From Sulfobacillus acidophilus DSM 10332 (GTDB lineage: Bacteria > Bacillota > Sulfobacillia > Sulfobacillales > Sulfobacillaceae), in assembly GCA_000237975.1 (NCBI GenBank), contig CP003180.1, positions 1-64,000 of the forward strand: a stretch of 64,000 bases of DNA. Direction: 5' to 3'. How positions within the stretch are numbered: position 1 is the stretch's first letter; each line of letters opens with the position of its first letter. Positions 19,921 through 32,720 of the stretch are shown here, in pieces. The notes beneath the pieces were generated by a model. That model saw only the letters and a program-made list of their open reading frames with translations, was not told the origin of the DNA and made no database searches. Made by a program: the position numbers and the translations under genes.

Positions 19921-21334
19921 GAGAATGCCCCATTTTTCGTGGAAATTGAAACTAGCGATCCCGATGGCTCTCTGGTTTACTAGAGAGGTCTAATCCATCA
20001 TGAAGGAGGAATCGCTAGTGGCTTCCAGTATAACGAAAAAGTCCCGCTCGGAACAGACGCTGACCGTGCCGTGGGTAGACATTCTCCAGGATGCGGAAGA
20101 CGGCTTATTGGCGCTGTCGATCCGGGTCGGATTGCAGGTCTTGCAACAGATGATGGCGGCCGAGGTGGAGCAGTTAGCGGGGCCTAAAGGACGTCATGAT
20201 CCGCAACGCCAAGCGGTCCGACACGGGACCGAAGTCGGGAGCGTCTTTTTGGGGGATCGCAAAATCTCCGTTTCGCACCCACGGGTGCGGGCAGCCGATG
20301 GCTCGGAGGAAATTCCGTTAGACACCTACCATCAGTTTCAGGACCCGACGCTGGCGACCCAAGCCGTACTGGAACGGATGCTGTATGGCTTAGCGAGCCG
20401 CCAGCAGCGCCATGCCGATGCCGCCTTTGAATCCGCGATGGAGCAGCCGGGCCCCAGCAAAAGCACGGTGAGCCGGCGCTTTATCCAAGCCACCCAACAG
20501 GCCCTCGACCGCTTCCTCCAACGCCGGTTGGATGACCGGACGTGGGTTGTGGTGATGATCGATGGTTTGCGCGTGGCCGACCACATGGTGGTCGGGGCCT
20601 TAGGGATTGATGCGGAAGGCCACAAACGCGTACTGGGATTGGTGGAAGGGGCCACCGAAAATCATACCGTGGTCACGGCCTTATTACAGGATCTGATCAC
20701 CCGCGGCCTGACGGCCGCGCACGGATTACTCGTGGTCATCGATGGCGCCAAGGCCTTAGCCAAAGCGGTGCGCGAGGTCTGGGGGGATCGCGTCCTCATC
20801 CAACGCTGCCAAATTCACAAGCAACGGAATGTGCTGGACCACCTGCCGAAATCGGCCGAAAATCGTGTCCGCCAGCGCTTACGGAAAGCGTATCAAGAAC
20901 CGGATGCGGACAAGGCCGCCCAGGCATTAGAAGCGCTCGCGAAAGAGCTTGAACGGGACCATCCCGGCGCCGCCGGGAGCCTCCGAGAAGGGTTGGAAGA
21001 GACCCTCACCGTGCAGCGTTTGGGTCTTCCGGGCCTCTTGCGCCAAACGTTGGCCAACACCAATGCCATGGAATCTCTTAACAGTCAATTTCGGACCCAT
21101 GCGCAGAACGTCAAACATTGGACCAATGGGCAACAAGTCTTACGCTGGTTGGCGTCGGCGAGCTTTTTCATCGAAGACACGTTGACGCGGATCCCGGGCT
21201 ATCGCGAGATTCCCGTGTTGCAAACGGCCTTAAAATCAGCAGTGGCGCATAAACCCGAACAAAAAACCGAGCAAATCGGTTAAATCATGAGAAAGGATAC
21301 GCTAGCGAAATTCCACGAAACCTGGGACAACCTC
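19921..21334 (+). mobile_element. IS256-family element, copy 1 of an identical pair
   Basis: 1414 bp. Inverted ends GAGAATGCCCCATTTTTCGT and GAGGTTGTCCCAGGTTTCGT. Perfect 9-bp target duplication CGCCGGCAA at 19912-19920 and 21335-21343. The encoded protein is identical to that of the element at 60309-61722. Confidence 0.97.
20018..21283 (+). CDS. IS256-family transposase
   Basis: About 421 residues. Catalytic contexts: Asp in VVVMIDGLRVAD, Asp in LLVVIDGAKAL, Glu in ANTNAMESLNSQFR. The C(x)2H-like helix region has RCQIHKQRNVLDHLP. GTG 20018 follows AAGGAGGA with 7-nt spacing and is preferred over ATG 20000. Intact and identical to the second copy, so probably recently active. Confidence 0.93.
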   Translation: MASSITKKSRSEQTLTVPWVDILQDAEDGLLALSIRVGLQVLQQMMAAEVEQLAGPKGRHDPQRQAVRHGTEVGSVFLGDRKISVSHPRVRAADGSEEIPLDTYHQFQDPTLATQAVLERMLYGLASRQQRHADAAFESAMEQPGPSKSTVSRRFIQATQQALDRFLQRRLDDRTWVVVMIDGLRVADHMVVGALGIDAEGHKRVLGLVEGATENHTVVTALLQDLITRGLTAAHGLLVVIDGAKALAKAVREVWGDRVLIQRCQIHKQRNVLDHLPKSAENRVRQRLRKAYQEPDADKAAQALEALAKELERDHPGAAGSLREGLEETLTVQRLGLPGLLRQTLANTNAMESLNSQFRTHAQNVKHWTNGQQVLRWLASASFFIEDTLTRIPGYREIPVLQTALKSAVAHKPEQKTEQIG

Positions 21335-22854: not shown

Positions 22855-22956
22855 ATGGCCTTAACGGTCACGATGACGAAGGAGAAAGAAACCAAAAACA
22901 CGGTGCGGTTCCTTTTTAGCCCCTTAAGAAAGCATGACAAAAGCGATCTCTCTTGA
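22855..22956 (+). pseudogene. 5' fragment of a small KETKNTVR-family gene
   Basis: ATG 22855 after GGAGGTGAT. MALTVTMTKEKETKNTVRF is the start of a small conserved protein I have seen described only as hypothetical. Coding sense is lost around the IS3 insertion at 22935, where the frame runs into the element and stops. Confidence 0.55.
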
Positions 22957-22984
22957 TACCGTAAAAACAGGTAAAGGAGAGGCT

Positions 22985-23263
22985 ATGATTCCGATGAGTC
23001 AAACCTATGCACCCGAATTTAAACAGCAAGTGGTACGCGAAGTACGAGAAACCGGTAATGCGGCCCTGGTAGCCCGGCAACATCAGCTGAACCCCTCCAT
23101 GGTGCGCCGCTGGGTCCGGGAAGCCTTAACCGCAGAATATCCGGATCCGCAAGCCTTGTCGTTAGCCGAAGAAAACGTGCGCCTAAAGCGGCTGTTAGCG
23201 GAGCGCGACCTTCAAATTGCGATGCTCCAGGATTTTCTCCGCAAAAAGGGGATGCGGTGGTGA
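22985..23263 (+). CDS. IS3 OrfA
   Basis: About 92 residues. The helix-turn-helix region (AALVARQHQLNPSMVRRWV) is followed by a leucine-rich coiled coil (ENVRLKRLLAERDLQIAMLQ). ATG 22985 has AAAGGAGAGG upstream. Its stop overlaps the OrfB start region by 7 nt. Confidence 0.88.
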   Translation: MIPMSQTYAPEFKQQVVREVRETGNAALVARQHQLNPSMVRRWVREALTAEYPDPQALSLAEENVRLKRLLAERDLQIAMLQDFLRKKGMRW

Positions 23264-24213
23264 CAGAATTATGTGAACAGGTGCATGCATGGGCTGAGGC
23301 GTACCCCCAGGTGCCCCTGCAAGTCTGGTGTGCGACCGTGCATCTCCCGCGCGGGAGTTATTATGCCTGGCGCCGGCGGCAGCTCAACCCGTCCGAAGAC
23401 CGACGGCGCGCGGCCGTCGGCCGCGCCCCTGTGGGCTATAGCACCACCCAAACCGGGCATGCGGTGTCCGACGACCAAATCATGGCGTGGATTCTGGCCA
23501 TTTTGGAGCAGGAAAATCCCTGGTATGGCTATCGGAAAGTCACGGCGGTCTTACGCCAACAGTATGGGTTGATCATCAATCCGAAAAAGGTCTATCGGCT
23601 GATGAAGGCTTGGCACTTGCTCTGGCCCGATCGCCCCCCGAAATCGCGCTATCCGCGCAAATTGGCCCGGAATTGGGTCATCACGCGACCGAACCAGCTG
23701 TGGCAAACGGACATCACCTACGGATATATTGCGGGCGAAGACCGTTTTTTCTACGTCCAAGCGATTTTAGATGTCTGTGACCGGAGTATCGTGGCCTATC
23801 ACATTGGGCTGACCTGCCGGGCGGCGGACGCCGCCCAGACGCTTCAACGAGCCGTCCAGGCCCGCCAGACCGAATGGGGTCCGGAACCGCCCGTGATTCG
23901 CACCGATAATGGCCCTCAATTTACGGCTCACGTGTTCGAAGCCCAGTGTCAAGCCTTCGGCTTGACCCACGAACGGATTCCCGTGGCGACGCCGAACGCC
24001 AACGCCTATATTGAGGCCTGGCATGCCCTGTTAGACCGCGAATGTCTGAGTCAGGAATTTGCGACCTATGCCGAAGCCTACGCGGCGGTCACCCGGTGGA
24101 TTGCGTTTTATAACCAGCGCCGCCTGCACGGAGCCTTAGGGTATCGGTCTCCTGCCCAAATGCGGCACGCCGTGGCGAACGGCCAAGCACAGTGGACCCC
24201 GTTGTGTGCGTAA
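23257..24213 (+). CDS. IS3 OrfB transposase
   Basis: 318 residues. HTH_21 region (NPWYGYRKVTAVL) and rve core with Asp in LWQTDITYGY, Asp in VIRTDNGPQF and Glu in NANAYIEAWHALLDRE. It starts at GTG 23257 within the end of OrfA. Intact. A decayed relative lies at 62263-62519. Confidence 0.92.
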   Translation: MVTELCEQVHAWAEAYPQVPLQVWCATVHLPRGSYYAWRRRQLNPSEDRRRAAVGRAPVGYSTTQTGHAVSDDQIMAWILAILEQENPWYGYRKVTAVLRQQYGLIINPKKVYRLMKAWHLLWPDRPPKSRYPRKLARNWVITRPNQLWQTDITYGYIAGEDRFFYVQAILDVCDRSIVAYHIGLTCRAADAAQTLQRAVQARQTEWGPEPPVIRTDNGPQFTAHVFEAQCQAFGLTHERIPVATPNANAYIEAWHALLDRECLSQEFATYAEAYAAVTRWIAFYNQRRLHGALGYRSPAQMRHAVANGQAQWTPLCA

Positions 24214-25123: not shown

Positions 25124-25714
25124 ATGTCAAGTGAAGTTCGCGAGCGCATCCTTGATACCGCATCTCGGCTTTTCTATGCCGAAGGAATCCGCGCCGTAGG
25201 GATCGATCGCATTGTTGCGGAATCGGGCGTCGCCAAAATGAGCCTGTACAACCACTTTCGGTCCAAAGACGATTTGGTGGTAGCGCACCTGGAACGACGC
25301 CATGAATGCTGGAAAGAGTGGTTTCAAGCCGCGCTCAGTAAACGGACGATACAGCCTGGGGAGCACGTGCAAGCCTTGTTTGATGCGTTGGGGGAGTGGA
25401 TTTGGCAGAACAATGCACGGGGATGTCCGTTTATCAATGCGACTCTGGAACTCGCCGATCCCAATCATCCGGCACAGTCCGTGGCGGACCGTCACCGCGC
25501 TTTTGTGCGCGACTTTATTGCCGAACAATTACGCGCTGACGGGATCCCGCCGGCTCAGCAGCTTGTCGATCAGTTAAGCCTGTTGATGGATGGCGCGATC
25601 ATTGGTTCGGTGATGGGGAGCGTTGACGCGACACGGCGGGCAGCCCAGATGGCTGATGAAGTGATTCGGGCGTACAGGCATGACCCTCAGCGAAACAATC
25701 CAGAACCCAAATAG
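25124..25714 (+). CDS. TetR-family regulator
   Basis: 196 residues. N-terminal TetR domain (ASRLFYAEGIRAVGIDRI; recognition helix KMSLYNHFRSKDDLV) and a C-terminal domain with GCPFINATLELAD, typical of the TetR_C subgroup that responds to electrophiles or reactive metabolites. ATG 25124 after AGGAGGAA. Followed 12 nt later by the CMD-like gene, so they form an operon. Confidence 0.92.
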   Translation: MSSEVRERILDTASRLFYAEGIRAVGIDRIVAESGVAKMSLYNHFRSKDDLVVAHLERRHECWKEWFQAALSKRTIQPGEHVQALFDALGEWIWQNNARGCPFINATLELADPNHPAQSVADRHRAFVRDFIAEQLRADGIPPAQQLVDQLSLLMDGAIIGSVMGSVDATRRAAQMADEVIRAYRHDPQRNNPEPK

Positions 25715-25726
25715 GGAGAACGAACC

Positions 25727-26056
25727 ATGCCAAATATTAAGCGTAGCCATTTTCAGTCTAATCCAAATTTCAAGGCTTGCTTTGCCGAAACGCACCAGAC
25801 CGGTGTTCTTGATGCCAAGACCAAAGAGTTGATGCACTTAGCGTTAGTCCTTGCGCTCCATTGTGAACCCTGAGCGGTGAATCACTTCGCAGGTGCGAAG
25901 AAATTAGGGGCCACGGATGCAGAAATTAGCGAGACGATTCAACTGGCCGCATCGGTCGGGGTGGGCGTCATACTAGCCATGGCGGATCGGGCCGAAATCG
26001 CCTCAGACAGGAAATTTTTCTGGTGGCGTCCTCCTCGTGAAGCCAAACCTGAGTAA
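25727..26056 (+). CDS. CMD/AhpD-like protein with in-frame TGA at the CxxC motif (candidate selenoprotein)
   Basis: Read through TGA at 25871-25873, the frame gives 109 residues and ends at TAA 26054-26056. The carboxymuconolactone-decarboxylase/AhpD fold pattern is intact on both sides: KTKELMHLALVLALHCEP, then U, then AVNHFAGAKKLGATDAEI. The TGA is codon 49, exactly the second position of the CxxC redox motif (C-E-P-U-x3-H). CMD-domain and AhpD-like selenoproteins have been reported. Just after the TGA is a hairpin resembling a bacterial SECIS (see separate entry). ATG 25727 follows AGGGAG. The alternative is a nonsense mutation; the two genes downstream are clearly decayed, so this must be tested. 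Confidence 0.6.
25871..25900 (+). promoter_or_regulatory. candidate bacterial SECIS element
   Basis: After the TGA come 17 nt, then the loop AGGT closed by a perfect 6-bp stem (CTTCGC / GCGAAG). Numbering the U of UGA as 1, U17, G23 and U24 are present, the positions I recall as critical in E. coli fdhF, which also has 17 nt between UGA and AGGU. U17 would pair here rather than bulge. Confidence 0.55.
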
Positions 26057-26184: not shown

Positions 26185-26630
26185 ATGCTAATCGTGTTCG
26201 ATGCGTATGGCACACTGTGGGATGTGACTGCCCTCGAGGTTCGCTGTCGAGAGGTAGTAGGTCCTGATGACGCGGGGCCTACCCGGGTGCTTTTACGAAC
26301 GGCGATCCCGCCATGCTGGCCCAAGGCGTAAGGCATTTGCACTGGGAGCAGGTGGTGGATGATGTGGTGAGTGTAGATCAGGTGCGGCGATATAAGCCGC
26401 ATCCAAAAGCGTATCAATTGATTTGCGACAAATACGGGGTCACGCCCGACGCGGTGTATTTTGTCTCGTCCAACGGCTGGGATGTTTCCGGCGCCGCCCA
26501 TTTCGGGTTTCGTACCGTGTGGGTGAATCGGCGCGACCAGCCGTTCGAGCAGTTGGACGTACGGCCTTTTTCGGTGGTGCGTCAGTTGAAGGAGCTTTTG
26601 TCTGTCTTTTCGGAAGGGGCTCAACCGTAA
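26185..26630 (+). pseudogene. haloacid-dehalogenase-type hydrolase with internal deletion
   Basis: ATG 26185 (after GAGAGGAG) begins the HAD motif I (MLIVFDAYGTLWDV) but the frame breaks after ~35 codons. From 26313 another frame gives the second half: RYKPHPKAYQLICDKYGV (motif III Lys) and FVSSNGWDVSGAAHFGF (motif IV). The cap domain between is missing, about 70-80 residues, out of frame. Dead gene. Confidence 0.8.
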
Positions 26631-27350: not shown

Positions 27351-29003
27351 ATCCATCGGATTGAAGAGATTAAACGGTCCAGTCGTCACTTGCGGGGAAC
27401 CGTATTTGACGAACTCTATCACAATCCGGACCCAGGTCTGTCTGAGGCCAATCGACAATTGGTGAAGTTTTTCGGAATGTACCAGCAACGGGATCGGGAC
27501 CGGAAAACCTCGCTGGATGAGGCTGTCTATACCTTTATGGTTCGTATCGCCACCGCTGCCGGTAGTCTAACGGCGGCCCAGTATACGGTATTGGATGCGC
27601 TGGCCCAGGATCTGGGGCACGGGTCGTTACGGCTGACGACCCGTCAAGCGGTACAGATCCATGGGGTGGCCAAAAATGACCTGCCGGCTCTGGTTCAGCG
27701 TTTGACGGCGCACGACCTGACGAGTTTAGCGGGGTGCGGCGACGTTGTGCGGAATGTGGTGGCCTGTCCCTGGCCGGATTTTGGTGGACCCCGAGATCGG
27801 GTCCGGGCCATGGCCCACTTGTTGTCGGACCATTTCAAACCTCAGACTCGGGCGTATGTGGAATTGTTCGTGGCAGGACAAAAGGTTTGGGAAGCCGCCG
27901 AGGATGAGCCGTTATATGGCGAACAGTATTTACCGCGCAAGTTCAAAATTGGGCTGACTGTGGCGGGTGATAACTGTATCGATGTGTATAGTCATGACGT
28001 CGGTTTGGTATTTCATCCGGCGACCGATCGGTGGACGGTGCTGGTGGGTGGGGGGCTAGGACAGTCGCAAGGCGTGGCCAATACGCATGCTGCCCTGGCT
28101 CACTCTCTTGGGACAATAACGACAGAAGCGGTTCTGCCGGTGGTCGAAGCGATTGTGACGGTGCAACGGGACTTTGGTCGCCGGGATGATCGGAAATTTG
28201 CCCGTTTGAAATATCTCATCGAGGACTGGGGCCTTAATCGGTTGCGCGCGGCCGTGATTGAACGCACCAAACGGGCGCTCGACCCCCCCGTGCCGCTGGA
28301 TTGGGATCCGGAGACAGATCACCTCGGACTTCACGACCCCAAGGTGGTGGGGGTATGGCTCCCCCAAGGGCGCATTCGCGATACCGCCACGATTCCCTGG
28401 GCACGGACCCTCCGGCATGTCATAGCCCAGTACCAACCCTGCCTACAAATTACGCCGCAACATCATTTACTACTGGTTTGCACTGAGGCTGAGGAGGCGG
28501 GAGCAATCCGCGCAGCATTAGTGGACGGGGGGATACCGCTTCCCGAGACATTGTCCCCTATCCGTCGCTATGTCATGGCATGCCCGGCCTTGCCGACCTG
28601 CGGACTCGCCTTGGCGGAGGCCGAACGGGTGATTGACGCCGTGGTGGCTCAAATCGAGACCAAATGGCAAGAAGTCGGATTATCGCCAACCGATTTGCGC
28701 GTGCGTGTGACCGGCTGTTCCAATAACTGTGCGCGATCGTTTTTGGCCGAAGTGGGGTTGGTCGGGGCCGCGCCGGGCCGGTATCACGTATATGTGGGAG
28801 GCACGGTGCGCGGTACGCGGTTGGCGCGCTTGTTAGAGGAGCGGATTCCATTGGATGCGGTTCCCGACGTGTTGGAACCGATCTTTCGTCAGTATCGCGA
28901 AACGCAGGCGCCACAAGAACGGTTTGGGGACTGGTGTCAACGCATGGCTGTTGGACGCCCGCCGCGGCAGGATCTTCTGGAAGGAGCACACCATCATGGA
29001 TAA
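27351..29003 (+). CDS. cysI: assimilatory sulfite reductase (haemoprotein/ferredoxin type)
   Basis: Reduces sulfite to sulfide with six electrons at a sirohaem-[4Fe-4S] centre. Two ferrite-like half-domains precede the cluster ligands ACPALPTCGLALAEAE (Cys-x5-Cys) and VTGCSNNCARSFLAEVG (Cys-x3-Cys). ~550 residues, normal length. The family N-terminus IEEIKRSSRHLRG is encoded upstream of the first in-frame TTG (27390), but no ATG, GTG or TTG precedes it before a stop at 27282. GGAGGAGG at 27336-27343 is ideally spaced (7 nt) from an ATC at 27351, so a non-canonical start is proposed. First gene of the cys operon. Confidence 0.88.
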   Translation: MHRIEEIKRSSRHLRGTVFDELYHNPDPGLSEANRQLVKFFGMYQQRDRDRKTSLDEAVYTFMVRIATAAGSLTAAQYTVLDALAQDLGHGSLRLTTRQAVQIHGVAKNDLPALVQRLTAHDLTSLAGCGDVVRNVVACPWPDFGGPRDRVRAMAHLLSDHFKPQTRAYVELFVAGQKVWEAAEDEPLYGEQYLPRKFKIGLTVAGDNCIDVYSHDVGLVFHPATDRWTVLVGGGLGQSQGVANTHAALAHSLGTITTEAVLPVVEAIVTVQRDFGRRDDRKFARLKYLIEDWGLNRLRAAVIERTKRALDPPVPLDWDPETDHLGLHDPKVVGVWLPQGRIRDTATIPWARTLRHVIAQYQPCLQITPQHHLLLVCTEAEEAGAIRAALVDGGIPLPETLSPIRRYVMACPALPTCGLALAEAERVIDAVVAQIETKWQEVGLSPTDLRVRVTGCSNNCARSFLAEVGLVGAAPGRYHVYVGGTVRGTRLARLLEERIPLDAVPDVLEPIFRQYRETQAPQERFGDWCQRMAVGRPPRQDLLEGAHHHG

Positions 29004-29679
29004 AGCATTGGACGTTGACGCTTATGCGGCCCGCTGGGAAACCGCCCATCCGCGAGACATCTTGGCTGAGGTAGCCGGTTGGGGTGGGCACTGGACGTTA
29101 GCGATGAGCTTTCAGCGGGAAGACACGGTCATTTTGCACTGGGCCACGATGGTCGGCCTCTCGTTCGACGTGTTTTGGTTGGATACGGACCTTTTGTTTT
29201 CCGAAACCTACGCGTTTTATGAAACGGTTCAATCCCGGTATCCCGTCCTGTGGCGGCGCATTCGCCCCGCCTTGTCCCTGACGGATCAGGCAGCTCAATA
29301 CGGGGAGGCGTTATGGCAGCGGGATCCTCATTCATGTTGTTTCCGGCGCAAGGTCGAACCGTTGTTCGAGGCGTTGGCTGGCTATGACGGGTGGATTACC
29401 GGCATTCGCCGAGAGCAAAGCCCGACACGAGCGCAGGCACCGATAATTTCTTGGGACGACCGCCACGGTTTATATAAGCTCAATCCTTTGGCGACATGGA
29501 CTACAGGGCAAGTCCAGGCTGTGACGGAAGACGAAGGAATCCCGGTCCATCCATTGCATTCCCAGGGATACCCCAGTCTTGGGTGTGCTCCATGCACCCG
29601 GCCAACACGGCCGGGGGAATCTCTCCGTGCCGGACGATGGGAAGGATGGGATAAGTTCGAATGCGGAATTCATCAATAA
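28996..29679 (+). CDS. cysH: APS/PAPS reductase
   Basis: 227 residues. Reduces adenylyl- (or phosphoadenylyl-) sulfate to sulfite. PP-loop-like SFQREDTVILHW at the nucleotide site; cysteine pairs at 114-115 (HSCCFRRK) and 197/200 (LGCAPC) that bind a [4Fe-4S] cluster, and the catalytic C-terminal ECGIH (Cys 223). The two cysteine pairs point to the plant-type APS reductase rather than the cluster-free PAPS enzyme. ATG 28996 follows AAGGAG inside the end of cysI. Confidence 0.92.
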   Translation: MDKALDVDAYAARWETAHPRDILAEVAGWGGHWTLAMSFQREDTVILHWATMVGLSFDVFWLDTDLLFSETYAFYETVQSRYPVLWRRIRPALSLTDQAAQYGEALWQRDPHSCCFRRKVEPLFEALAGYDGWITGIRREQSPTRAQAPIISWDDRHGLYKLNPLATWTTGQVQAVTEDEGIPVHPLHSQGYPSLGCAPCTRPTRPGESLRAGRWEGWDKFECGIHQ

Positions 29680-30761
29680 TCGTTCACCAAGGGCCTCCGA
29701 CGGTGATTCGGCTTGACCGGGATCGCACCTGGGATGCGGTGTGTTTGGCCCGGGGGGTCTATGTGCCCTTAGCCGGGTTTATGGGGAAAGCCGATTATGA
29801 GGCCGTATTACGTACCATGCGCCTGACCGACGGCCGCCTTTGGCCATTACCCATCACGTTGCCGGTGCCTGATCCATCATGGGCCGCCTTGAAAGTCGGT
29901 GATGTGGTGGAATTGGCCGGTGCAGCGGGATTTTCCGGTCTCTTGGAAGTAGCCGAGACGTTCCGGCGTAACCTGGCTGCTGAAGCCGACTTCGTTTACG
30001 GGACGCGGGAACCTGCCCATCCCGGCGTTAATCGGTTGCTGGCCGAGCCTGAAGGGGCCGTCGCGGGTACGGTAACCGTCGTTCGGTGGCCGGCGCGTGC
30101 TTTTCCGGAGCTTTATTGGCCCGATGAAGTTCAATCGATGCTTCAGAAGCATCGATTTCGGTCGGTAGCGTTTTTTCAAACGCGCAATCCTTTACACCGT
30201 GCGCACGAAATGTTGTTAAAAATCGCCCTGGAGCAGGTTGACGCACTTGTCATTCATCCTCTTGTTGGTCCTACTAAATCCGACGATGTGTCGGCTTCGG
30301 TTCGTATGGATACTTATCGGGCGTTGATCGCGAACTATTTCCCCTCTCATCGGGTTTTCCTGGCTGTCTTTCCGGCCGGAATGCGATATGCCGGACCTCG
30401 GGAAGCGTTATTTCATGCGATTGTCCGTAAAAATTACGGGGCGACCCACGTGATTGTCGGCCGCGATGCGGCGGGCGTGGGCGCGTTTTACCCACCGGAT
30501 GCGGCCCGGAAGTTGGTCGCTGACTATGCGACGGAGATCGGCGTGACACCCCTGACCTTTGATGCGTTCGGATATTGCCCACGGTGCGACGGCATTGCGT
30601 CGGCCCGCAGTTGTCCTCATCAATCAGCCTGGGTCACCTTGTCAGGAACCGAATTGCGTCGTCGTTTAATCGGAGGTGAGCCGATTCCGGCCACCCTAAT
30701 ACGGCCCGAAATCGCCAGCATTTTGCAAGAAGCGTATCGTATCCCTCCGGAGGAGGTCTGA
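29661..30761 (+). CDS. sat: sulfate adenylyltransferase (ATP sulfurylase)
   Basis: 366 residues, the dissimilatory-like single-chain Sat. Makes APS from ATP and sulfate, feeding cysH. PUA-like N-terminal domain (LARGVYVPLAGFMG), catalytic QTRNPLHRAHE (about residues 173-183) and VGRDAAGVG. A Cys-rich zinc-knuckle-like segment (GYCPRCDGIASARSCPH) is present as in related enzymes. Overlaps the cysH end by 19 nt. Confidence 0.93.
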   Translation: MRNSSIIVHQGPPTVIRLDRDRTWDAVCLARGVYVPLAGFMGKADYEAVLRTMRLTDGRLWPLPITLPVPDPSWAALKVGDVVELAGAAGFSGLLEVAETFRRNLAAEADFVYGTREPAHPGVNRLLAEPEGAVAGTVTVVRWPARAFPELYWPDEVQSMLQKHRFRSVAFFQTRNPLHRAHEMLLKIALEQVDALVIHPLVGPTKSDDVSASVRMDTYRALIANYFPSHRVFLAVFPAGMRYAGPREALFHAIVRKNYGATHVIVGRDAAGVGAFYPPDAARKLVADYATEIGVTPLTFDAFGYCPRCDGIASARSCPHQSAWVTLSGTELRRRLIGGEPIPATLIRPEIASILQEAYRIPPEEV

Positions 30762-30762
30762 C

Positions 30763-31275
30763 ATGTCCTCGGGCTTTTATCCCGTATTATTGCGCATAAA
30801 GGGGGCGTCGGTGGTTGTGGCGGGCAGCGGGCCGCAGGCAGCTGCCAAGGTGGAGCGGTTGGTGGCGTCAGGAGTATCCGTGACGTTATTGGCACCGAAG
30901 CCCGGACCGGCTTTAGAGGCGTGGAGCGGGCAGACGATGGTTGAGGTGGCGCGCCGATCCCTTTCGGAGTCTGACGTGGCGGGCACACGCATTCTGTTTT
31001 TGGCGGATGAAGCGCGTGCCCTCGCTCCGGATATTTGTCCTCTGGCCGCCCAATATCGGACCTGGGTTAACGTCGTGGATAGTCCGGTCTGGTGCGATTT
31101 TTACTCGATGGCTCAGATGCGGCGCGGCAATTTGCTTATCGCGGTTGCCACAGCGGGACGTGCGCCGGGTATGGCGCGTGCTATTCGCGACCATATAGCC
31201 CGGGAGTTGGGTCCCGAATGGGAAGCGCGAATTGAGGACGCGGCGCGCCGTCGCAAGGAGGAAGGGCATGCCTAA
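30763..31275 (+). CDS. precorrin-2 dehydrogenase / sirohaem synthase N-domain
   Basis: 170 residues. NAD-binding Rossmann start (GASVVVAGSGPQAAAKVERL) and WVNVVDSPVWCDFY are typical of the CysG N-terminal / SirC group, which oxidises precorrin-2 to sirohydrochlorin. It supplies sirohaem to the sulfite reductase of the same operon. Starts 1 nt after sat. No separate ferrochelatase is visible here; some family members also insert iron. Confidence 0.88.
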   Translation: MSSGFYPVLLRIKGASVVVAGSGPQAAAKVERLVASGVSVTLLAPKPGPALEAWSGQTMVEVARRSLSESDVAGTRILFLADEARALAPDICPLAAQYRTWVNVVDSPVWCDFYSMAQMRRGNLLIAVATAGRAPGMARAIRDHIARELGPEWEARIEDAARRRKEEGHA

Positions 31276-32023
31276 GGGTCACGTATCGCTTGTGGGAGCG
31301 GGTCCCGGTGCGGCCGACCTCGTGACCGTACGAGCTGCGGAACGACTTGCTGAAGCGGATGTGGTGCTGTATGACCAGTTGGTCCCTGGCGCCGTCGTCG
31401 ATGCGTGGGCGCCGCAAGCCTATCGCGAATGTGTCGGCCGTCGGGCTCAGGGACCGCCTTGCCCCGTGGAAACGGTGGTAAGCCAACTCGTAGGGTACGC
31501 GCGGAAGGGCTTGGCGGTGGTTCGTCTCCATCAAGGGGATCCCGGCTTATACGGACGGGTCGCTGACGAAATCCTGGCCTTGATTCATGCAGGAGTTCCC
31601 TGGGAATGGATTCCGGGGGTCAGTGCCATGCTGGCGGCTCCGGCGGCGGCGGGCATCCCGTTAACCCGGCGATCCGCAGCTCGTCACGTTTGGGTGACGA
31701 CCGCGCACACCACTGACGGTGTCGGGTTACCCCGCGTACCAAAGGATCCCGCCTGGACCGGGGTCATTTTGATGGGACGCGATCAACAGACAACCATTCG
31801 GGACGTGTTACTCGCCCAAGGGTGGGATCCGAACACGCCAGTGGTTGTTGTTGGAGCAGCATCGCAGCCGGCGGAAGTCGTCTACAAAACGACCGTGAGG
31901 GGATTGCCGGTGTCGATACCAGACTTTCTTCCGACGACCGTCATCGTCGGGGCGGCCGCGGAATTTCCCGTTAAGGAGGTGAGGCCGCCAAATTCTGTTA
32001 AGGGGTCGATGGACAAGGATTAG
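31268..32023 (+). CDS. cobA: uroporphyrinogen-III C-methyltransferase
   Basis: 251 residues. SAM-dependent tetrapyrrole methylase that makes precorrin-2. Signature VSLVGAGPGAADLVTVRA at the N-terminus, RLHQGDPGLYGR and IPGVSAMLAAPAAAGIPLT. ATG 31268 overlaps the preceding stop by 8 nt. Together with the preceding gene it forms the sirohaem branch. Confidence 0.93.
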   Translation: MPKGHVSLVGAGPGAADLVTVRAAERLAEADVVLYDQLVPGAVVDAWAPQAYRECVGRRAQGPPCPVETVVSQLVGYARKGLAVVRLHQGDPGLYGRVADEILALIHAGVPWEWIPGVSAMLAAPAAAGIPLTRRSAARHVWVTTAHTTDGVGLPRVPKDPAWTGVILMGRDQQTTIRDVLLAQGWDPNTPVVVVGAASQPAEVVYKTTVRGLPVSIPDFLPTTVIVGAAAEFPVKEVRPPNSVKGSMDKD

Positions 32024-32066
32024 AGCGCTTATCTCAAAACAATGTCATTGTTAGGAGGTATCGTCA

Positions 32067-32720
32067 TTGGACATCCAAACTGTGAGTTTGCCGCGTATTG
32101 GGGACCCGGCACCTGATTTTGAGGCCAATTCGACCTTCGGGCCCATTCGTTTTTCGCAGTATCGGGGCCGGTGGGTGTTGCTGTTTTCCCATCCGGCCGA
32201 CTTTACCCCGGTGTGTTCCACAGAAATCATGGCCTTGGCCCGGCGCGCCCCGGAATTTGAGCAACGGGGTGTTCAGCTGATAGGGCTGTCGGTCGACAGT
32301 GTACCCGCTCACCTGGCCTGGACCAGGAATTTAGCGGCACATCTCGGGCATCCGGTTCCTTTTCCCATTATCGCCGATTTAGATATGACGGTATCGCGTC
32401 GTTACGGGATGCTGCACCCGGGCGAATCCACGACAGCCACAGTGCGTTCCGTGTTTTTCATAGATCCGGAGGGAGTCATTCGCGCCCTTGTTTATTATCC
32501 TTTGAGTACCGGGCGGAACATCGACGAGCTTTTGCGGGTTGTTGACAGTCTTCAAGTGACAGCGAGCCACAGTGTGTCGACGCCGGTAGACTGGAGGCCC
32601 GGGCAACCCGTGGTTGTGCCGGCGCCAGCCACGCAACAAGCCATTGAGACGCCAGACGACGCCCGACAAATGGGCCTAGAGTATCAAGAATGGTACCTCC
32701 GTTTTAAAACTATAGAGTAG
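32067..32720 (+). CDS. 1-Cys peroxiredoxin (Prx6 type)
   Basis: 217 residues. Catalytic motif HPADFTPVCSTE with Cys 50 as the only cysteine, so a 1-Cys enzyme. Long C-terminal domain (LRVVDSLQVT...) as in the Prx6 group. TTG 32067 is chosen because AGGAGG lies 8 nt upstream. It ends the cys operon and may protect the oxygen-sensitive sulfite reductase. Confidence 0.9.
   Translation: MDIQTVSLPRIGDPAPDFEANSTFGPIRFSQYRGRWVLLFSHPADFTPVCSTEIMALARRAPEFEQRGVQLIGLSVDSVPAHLAWTRNLAAHLGHPVPFPIIADLDMTVSRRYGMLHPGESTTATVRSVFFIDPEGVIRALVYYPLSTGRNIDELLRVVDSLQVTASHSVSTPVDWRPGQPVVVPAPATQQAIETPDDARQMGLEYQEWYLRFKTIE

Follow-up and report, generated by a model that had tools for sequence, protein, structure and literature searches.

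Locus organization

The window analysed here is a stretch of 64,000 nucleotides that comprises bases 1-64000 of contig 2 of Sulfobacillus acidophilus DSM 10332, one of the Sulfobacillales, which are acidophilic sulfur and iron oxidisers. The genome assembly consists of two contigs with 3,557,831 bases, corresponding to a chromosome of 3,472,898 and a plasmid of 84,933 bases (PMC3558970). The gene described below is presumably carried on the 85-kb plasmid, with the genes for its decoding on the chromosome. The locus has the following features:

25124..25714, + strand: TetR-family regulator (PF00440), ending 12 nt upstream of the selenoprotein gene
25714..25719, + strand: likely ribosome-binding site GGGAGA, 7 nt before the ATG, as suggested by direct reading of the sequence
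25727..26056, + strand: predicted CMD/AhpD-like selenoprotein gene, 109 aa (ATG ... UGA=Sec49 ... TAA), from ORF reading, PF02627 and homologues
25871..25873, + strand: in-frame TGA, predicted Sec49, second redox residue of C46-E-P-U49 (CEPU); kept as TGA in 13 of the 14 other carriers
25885..25900, + strand: hairpin of the bacterial SECIS type, CUUCGC-AGGU-GCGAAG, with a 6-bp stem and a 4-nt loop, separated from the UGA by 11 nt
26186..26630, + strand: HAD-family hydrolase remnant, reduced to its N-terminal start and C-terminal half, which are out of frame

The open frame is interrupted by a single TGA, which is codon 49 and directly follows Cys46-Glu47-Pro48. Its place at the second redox position of a Cys-Glu-Pro-X motif had been recognised in a first-pass annotation of this DNA, which proposed a candidate selenoprotein, and we confirmed it. 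The same annotation described the genes downstream as decayed; this was right for the HAD hydrolase, of which only the start and a C-terminal part are left. The TetR gene and the selenoprotein gene are probably co-transcribed, and the adjacent regulator may control the selenoprotein gene. In the relatives' loci, no TetR gene was found beside the selenoprotein gene. Mutator-family and IS3-type transposase genes lie upstream of the pair, at positions 20000-21283 and 22934-24213 of the window.

The encoded protein

For profile searches, the Sec codon of the 109-aa protein was read as Sec/Cys. The protein passed the thresholds of both PF02627 (CMD; 48.9 bits, cut-off 23) and TIGR00778 (AhpD core domain; 33.5 bits, cut-off 27.8), in agreement with the CMD/AhpD-like assignment of the first-pass annotation. 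An AlphaFold2 model was all-helical with a mean pLDDT of 84. The best matches of this model among solved structures were RclX (7y4r) and other AhpD-like proteins, while the sequence-profile match ranked the Legionella AhpD protein lpg0406 (5dik) first. In alignments with Cys homologues, U49 coincides with the second Cys of their CxxC motif.

The active site of M. tuberculosis AhpD comprises Glu118, Cys130, His132, Cys133, and His137 (PMC3141380). Based on an equal-length profile match to residues 118-168 of 1me5, the counterparts are Glu34, Cys46, Pro48 (in place of His132), Sec49, and His53, so that four of the five positions match; His132 is reported not to be absolutely conserved (PMC3141380). 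From sequence and model, we predict a small protein of the all-helical AhpD fold, in which Cys46-X-X-Sec49 forms the redox pair and Glu34 and His53 are the proton-relay residues. We infer its oligomeric state as well. A gamma-carboxymuconolactone decarboxylase was considered as an alternative family assignment. Members of the gamma-CMD group lack the CxxC motif (PMC3141380). Because a CxxU pair is present and invariant, we did not file the gene as a decarboxylase.

Relatives carrying the gene

Homologues were searched in 61 relatives, a genome collection, and 398 genomes of the phylum. They were found in 14 other genomes, giving 15 carriers including the window genome. Ten of the 14 belong to the same family or order, one (L023) is labelled Dormiibacterota, one (L099) represents another family of the class, and two (L100 and L101) are distant, with 47% identity over 76 residues. 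A search of a plasmid collection returned only matches below 60% identity.

The TGA occupies the same codon in 13 of the 14 other carrier genomes, which span several genera and families, and none of the 14 has TAA or TAG at this position. Inspection of the homologues, which the first-pass annotation had suggested, thus revealed no random stops but a single frameshift. The exception is L019 (1353-1677; same sequence as L030 5001-5325), in which TGAGCGGTG is replaced by ACGGGTG, with a net loss of 2 nt over the TGA. Its hairpin is intact and the downstream frame is still recognisable, and no such damage is seen in its sister genomes, L014 and L015. As L019 is a metagenome assembly of about 7x, decay and assembly error are indistinguishable in this case. 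Two further copies retain the TGA at the site and carry other lesions: L017 has two extra TGAs near its start, and L018 is without a recognisable N-terminal half.

No Cys at the Sec position was detected among the close homologues found in these searches. The next relatives beyond the Sec carriers (53% identity or less in the best segment) have CxxC. L100 (1531-1758) and L101 encode a distant AhpD-like selenoprotein with a CEHU motif, in which Sec and a compensated SECIS stem are kept. Where AhpD has Glu and His as relay residues, L100 has Lys and Gln. The chemistry may differ in this protein, because equivalents of Glu and His are absent.

Possible function

By analogy with characterised AhpD-like proteins, the likeliest function is that of a CxxU selenol/thiol peroxidase or adaptor. 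We lean towards peroxidase-type chemistry, in which peroxides or related oxidants would most likely be reduced via a selenol/selenenylsulfide cycle. Less probable, although deserving serious weight, is a selenoprotein that acts as a thiol/selenol adaptor or on another oxidant, perhaps coupled to a HAD hydrolase. AhpD itself is an adaptor protein working with AhpC (PMC3141380), and the window contains an AhpC/Prx gene at 32067-32720, 6 kb from the selenoprotein gene. In P. aeruginosa, RclX, the closest solved structure, confers protection from HOCl and HOSCN (PMC7950407). HAD hydrolase genes adjoin the selenoprotein gene in relatives of several genera (L011, L013, L016, L017, and, on the other strand, L018). 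However, the window no longer shows this link, the HAD neighbour is absent from the other loci, and we treat the association as a lead only. The neighbours in L023 include a thioredoxin/glutaredoxin-type protein, a PIG-L deacetylase, and an AhpC/DsbD-N protein.

The AhpC/Prx gene on the plasmid is preceded by an apparent assimilatory sulfur cluster, the two together occupying positions 27390-32720. A sulfite-reductase-type gene was called by Pfam (NIR_SIR), and PAPS-reductase-like, sulfurylase-like, and siroheme-type genes were assigned by eye.

The hairpin downstream of the UGA

Bacterial SECIS elements are hairpins located immediately 3' of the UGA, and their small loop contains a conserved G. 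The predicted hairpin at 25885-25900 has both this position and the loop G. The first-pass annotation had described 17 nt followed by a 6-bp stem with an AGGT loop. Stem and loop were as described, but the spacer between UGA and stem is 11 nt (25874-25884), and 17 nt is the distance to the loop. The nucleotides U17, G23, and U24 were also correctly listed as present; however, U17 forms a pair with A28, and the relatives have U, C, G, or A in place of U24, a freely varying third position in the glycine codon of the loop. The nearly conserved loop nucleotides are instead G22, which is invariant, and G23, which is kept in all except the most distant lineage.

A stem of at least six Watson-Crick pairs near that spacing occurred in 0.7% of random-codon controls. 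Among synonymous recodings of the peptide, the same stem arose by chance in 8.8%, and in 31% if G-U pairs were allowed. The fold energy of the 45-nt element was unremarkable (z = -0.98) and not significant alone. With a hairpin of a sort that is not uncommon by chance and an ordinary fold energy, comparative evidence was therefore needed: the hairpin alone is weak evidence, and its conservation across relatives raises it above chance. An Rfam scan of the region matched no family. A 120-nt covariance model of the region was built and left unused because it was dominated by protein-coding sequence.

Close family members have nearly identical stems, and covariation is therefore uninformative among them; L018 shows one U-G wobble. 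In the distant L100, the stem reads CUUGC-AGUU-GCAAG and keeps the register, and two of its pairs differ by compensatory changes (U16-A29 to C-G and C18-G27 to U-A). In a slid control, one register equalled this count of double changes, but only 55% of its cells were paired. Since it rests on one distant lineage and is equalled in double changes by the slid control, we regard the covariation as supporting and not decisive.

Selection around the UGA

The constraint on synonymous sites, calculated from ten sequences, gave the stronger result. Before the UGA, pS was 0.81; it fell to 0.26 across codons +1 to +9 and was 0.72 downstream of them, so that the drop is confined to the nine codons that hold the hairpin. 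Codons for invariant residues are frozen to one codon only at +1, 4, 5, 8, and 9, all between the UGA and the end of the hairpin, whereas 18 of 18 such codons outside +1 to +9 vary. For the same ten sequences, pN/pS was 0.08 before and 0.28 after the UGA. The latter value indicates that the region 3' of the UGA is translated and constrained. The comparison shows that UGA and hairpin are conserved and that translation through the UGA is under selection.

Decoding of the UGA

The genes selA, selB, selC, and selD, which the first-pass annotation had named for a search of the genome, were all found. Contig 1 encodes a tRNA-Sec with a UCA anticodon (73 bits) as well as SelA (472 bits), SelB (339 bits), and SelD (357 bits). 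On the plasmid contig, we obtained no match to SelA or SelB, and the matches to SelD were below the cut-off. A full-length SelA is present in all 15 carriers; within the set of 61 relatives, SelA occurs in 11 of 11 carriers compared to about 47 of 61 genomes overall. The SelD of the genome (L087, TGA at base 1531) is itself a selenoprotein as judged by an in-frame TGA within SGUGCK, with a hairpin downstream.

We consider it very probable that the locus is a working selenoprotein gene, in which UGA codon 49 is read as selenocysteine. The chromosomal SelB and Sec-tRNA-Sec would decode the codon, and the hairpin starting 11 nt downstream would direct the insertion of Sec. The actual incorporation of Sec at codon 49 is what we infer from the conserved site, the machinery, and the family membership.

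The first-pass annotation had raised the possibility of a plain nonsense mutation, which here would have struck a plasmid gene undergoing decay. The decayed HAD gene downstream, the transposases nearby, and the lesions in a few relatives fit such an event, and the state of the neighbouring HAD gene means that the window copy could be in early decay. A mutation of this kind is nevertheless at odds with a TGA that 13 further genomes, drawn from several genera and families, have at the same codon, with purifying selection on the downstream codons, and with synonymous sites that are frozen only around the hairpin. As the Sec machinery is present and the TGA is conserved in the relatives, we regard a plain nonsense mutation as excluded for practical purposes. 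An equally improbable reading is that the UGA specifies another amino acid (Trp via a suppressor or Cys via a special tRNA) in a protein that is not a selenoprotein: the genome does have a selC*-type tRNA-Cys (L002), a class known from PMC7609411, but its anticodon is GCA and not UCA, so that it cannot read UGA by normal pairing. In addition, the genome encodes the full Sec system, including a UCA tRNA-Sec, and the hairpin is found where bacterial SECIS elements sit.

The L002 tRNA (1497-1591, - strand; chromosome C1:1007566-1007656) is the second tRNA-Sec-like tRNA of this genome. With its long variable arm, U73, and Cys identity, it resembles the selC* tRNA-Cys class (PMC7609411). A likely normal tRNA-Cys is located at C1:1348604.

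Relation to known selenoproteins

That CMD/AhpD-like selenoproteins exist, as stated in the first-pass annotation, is documented. A CMD-like selenoprotein (PF02627, CxxU) was reported from the Sargasso Sea set (PMC1088965), and CxxU kinds are tabulated in PMC9312934 and PMC13188914. Compared by description, this protein and the one predicted here share the CMD domain, the CxxU motif with Sec at the second redox position, and a SECIS element just downstream; theirs is derived from a marine metagenome, whereas ours is from a Sulfobacillales plasmid. The GSU3128 family NF041047 ('distant AhpD homolog', CxxU) has the AhpD-type core and CxxU in common with the 109-aa protein, which scored 44.9 bits against a cut-off of 110 and is thus a relative and not a member. 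The best NCBIfam match was to the AhpD domain of NF041537 (arsenite methyltransferase/AhpD selenoprotein; UxxG, CxxU). Domain and CxxU are shared, but the 109-aa protein is stand-alone, without the methyltransferase part, and reached 49.4 bits (cut-off 510). RclX and lpg0406 have the AhpD fold and a CxxC motif at the position of CxxU, with Cys instead of Sec and about 32-34% identity in structural alignments.

Since CxxU CMD/AhpD selenoproteins are already catalogued, the present clade is not a new kind; it does not reach the thresholds of the curated seleno-AhpD models. Unusual features are the location of the gene on a plasmid, apart from its chromosomal decoding genes, and the lack of any close Cys homologue in our searches. 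Our literature search, with most subscription journals outside its coverage, returned no papers on Sulfobacillus selenoproteins. Tentatively, the clade may represent a Sec-only AhpD-like subfamily that, at least in S. acidophilus, is plasmid-borne without decoding genes. Such a gene would be useful only in Sec-making hosts, the ability of hosts to decode Sec would constrain how far it spreads, and its pairing with HAD in several relatives could reflect a possibly undescribed detoxification step.

With the selenoprotein reading, a gene that standard gene callers would cut off after residue 48 is put right, and the Sulfobacillales gain a clear selenoprotein family. As a plasmid gene that would depend on the genetic-code expansion of the host chromosome, it also provides a case open to testing.
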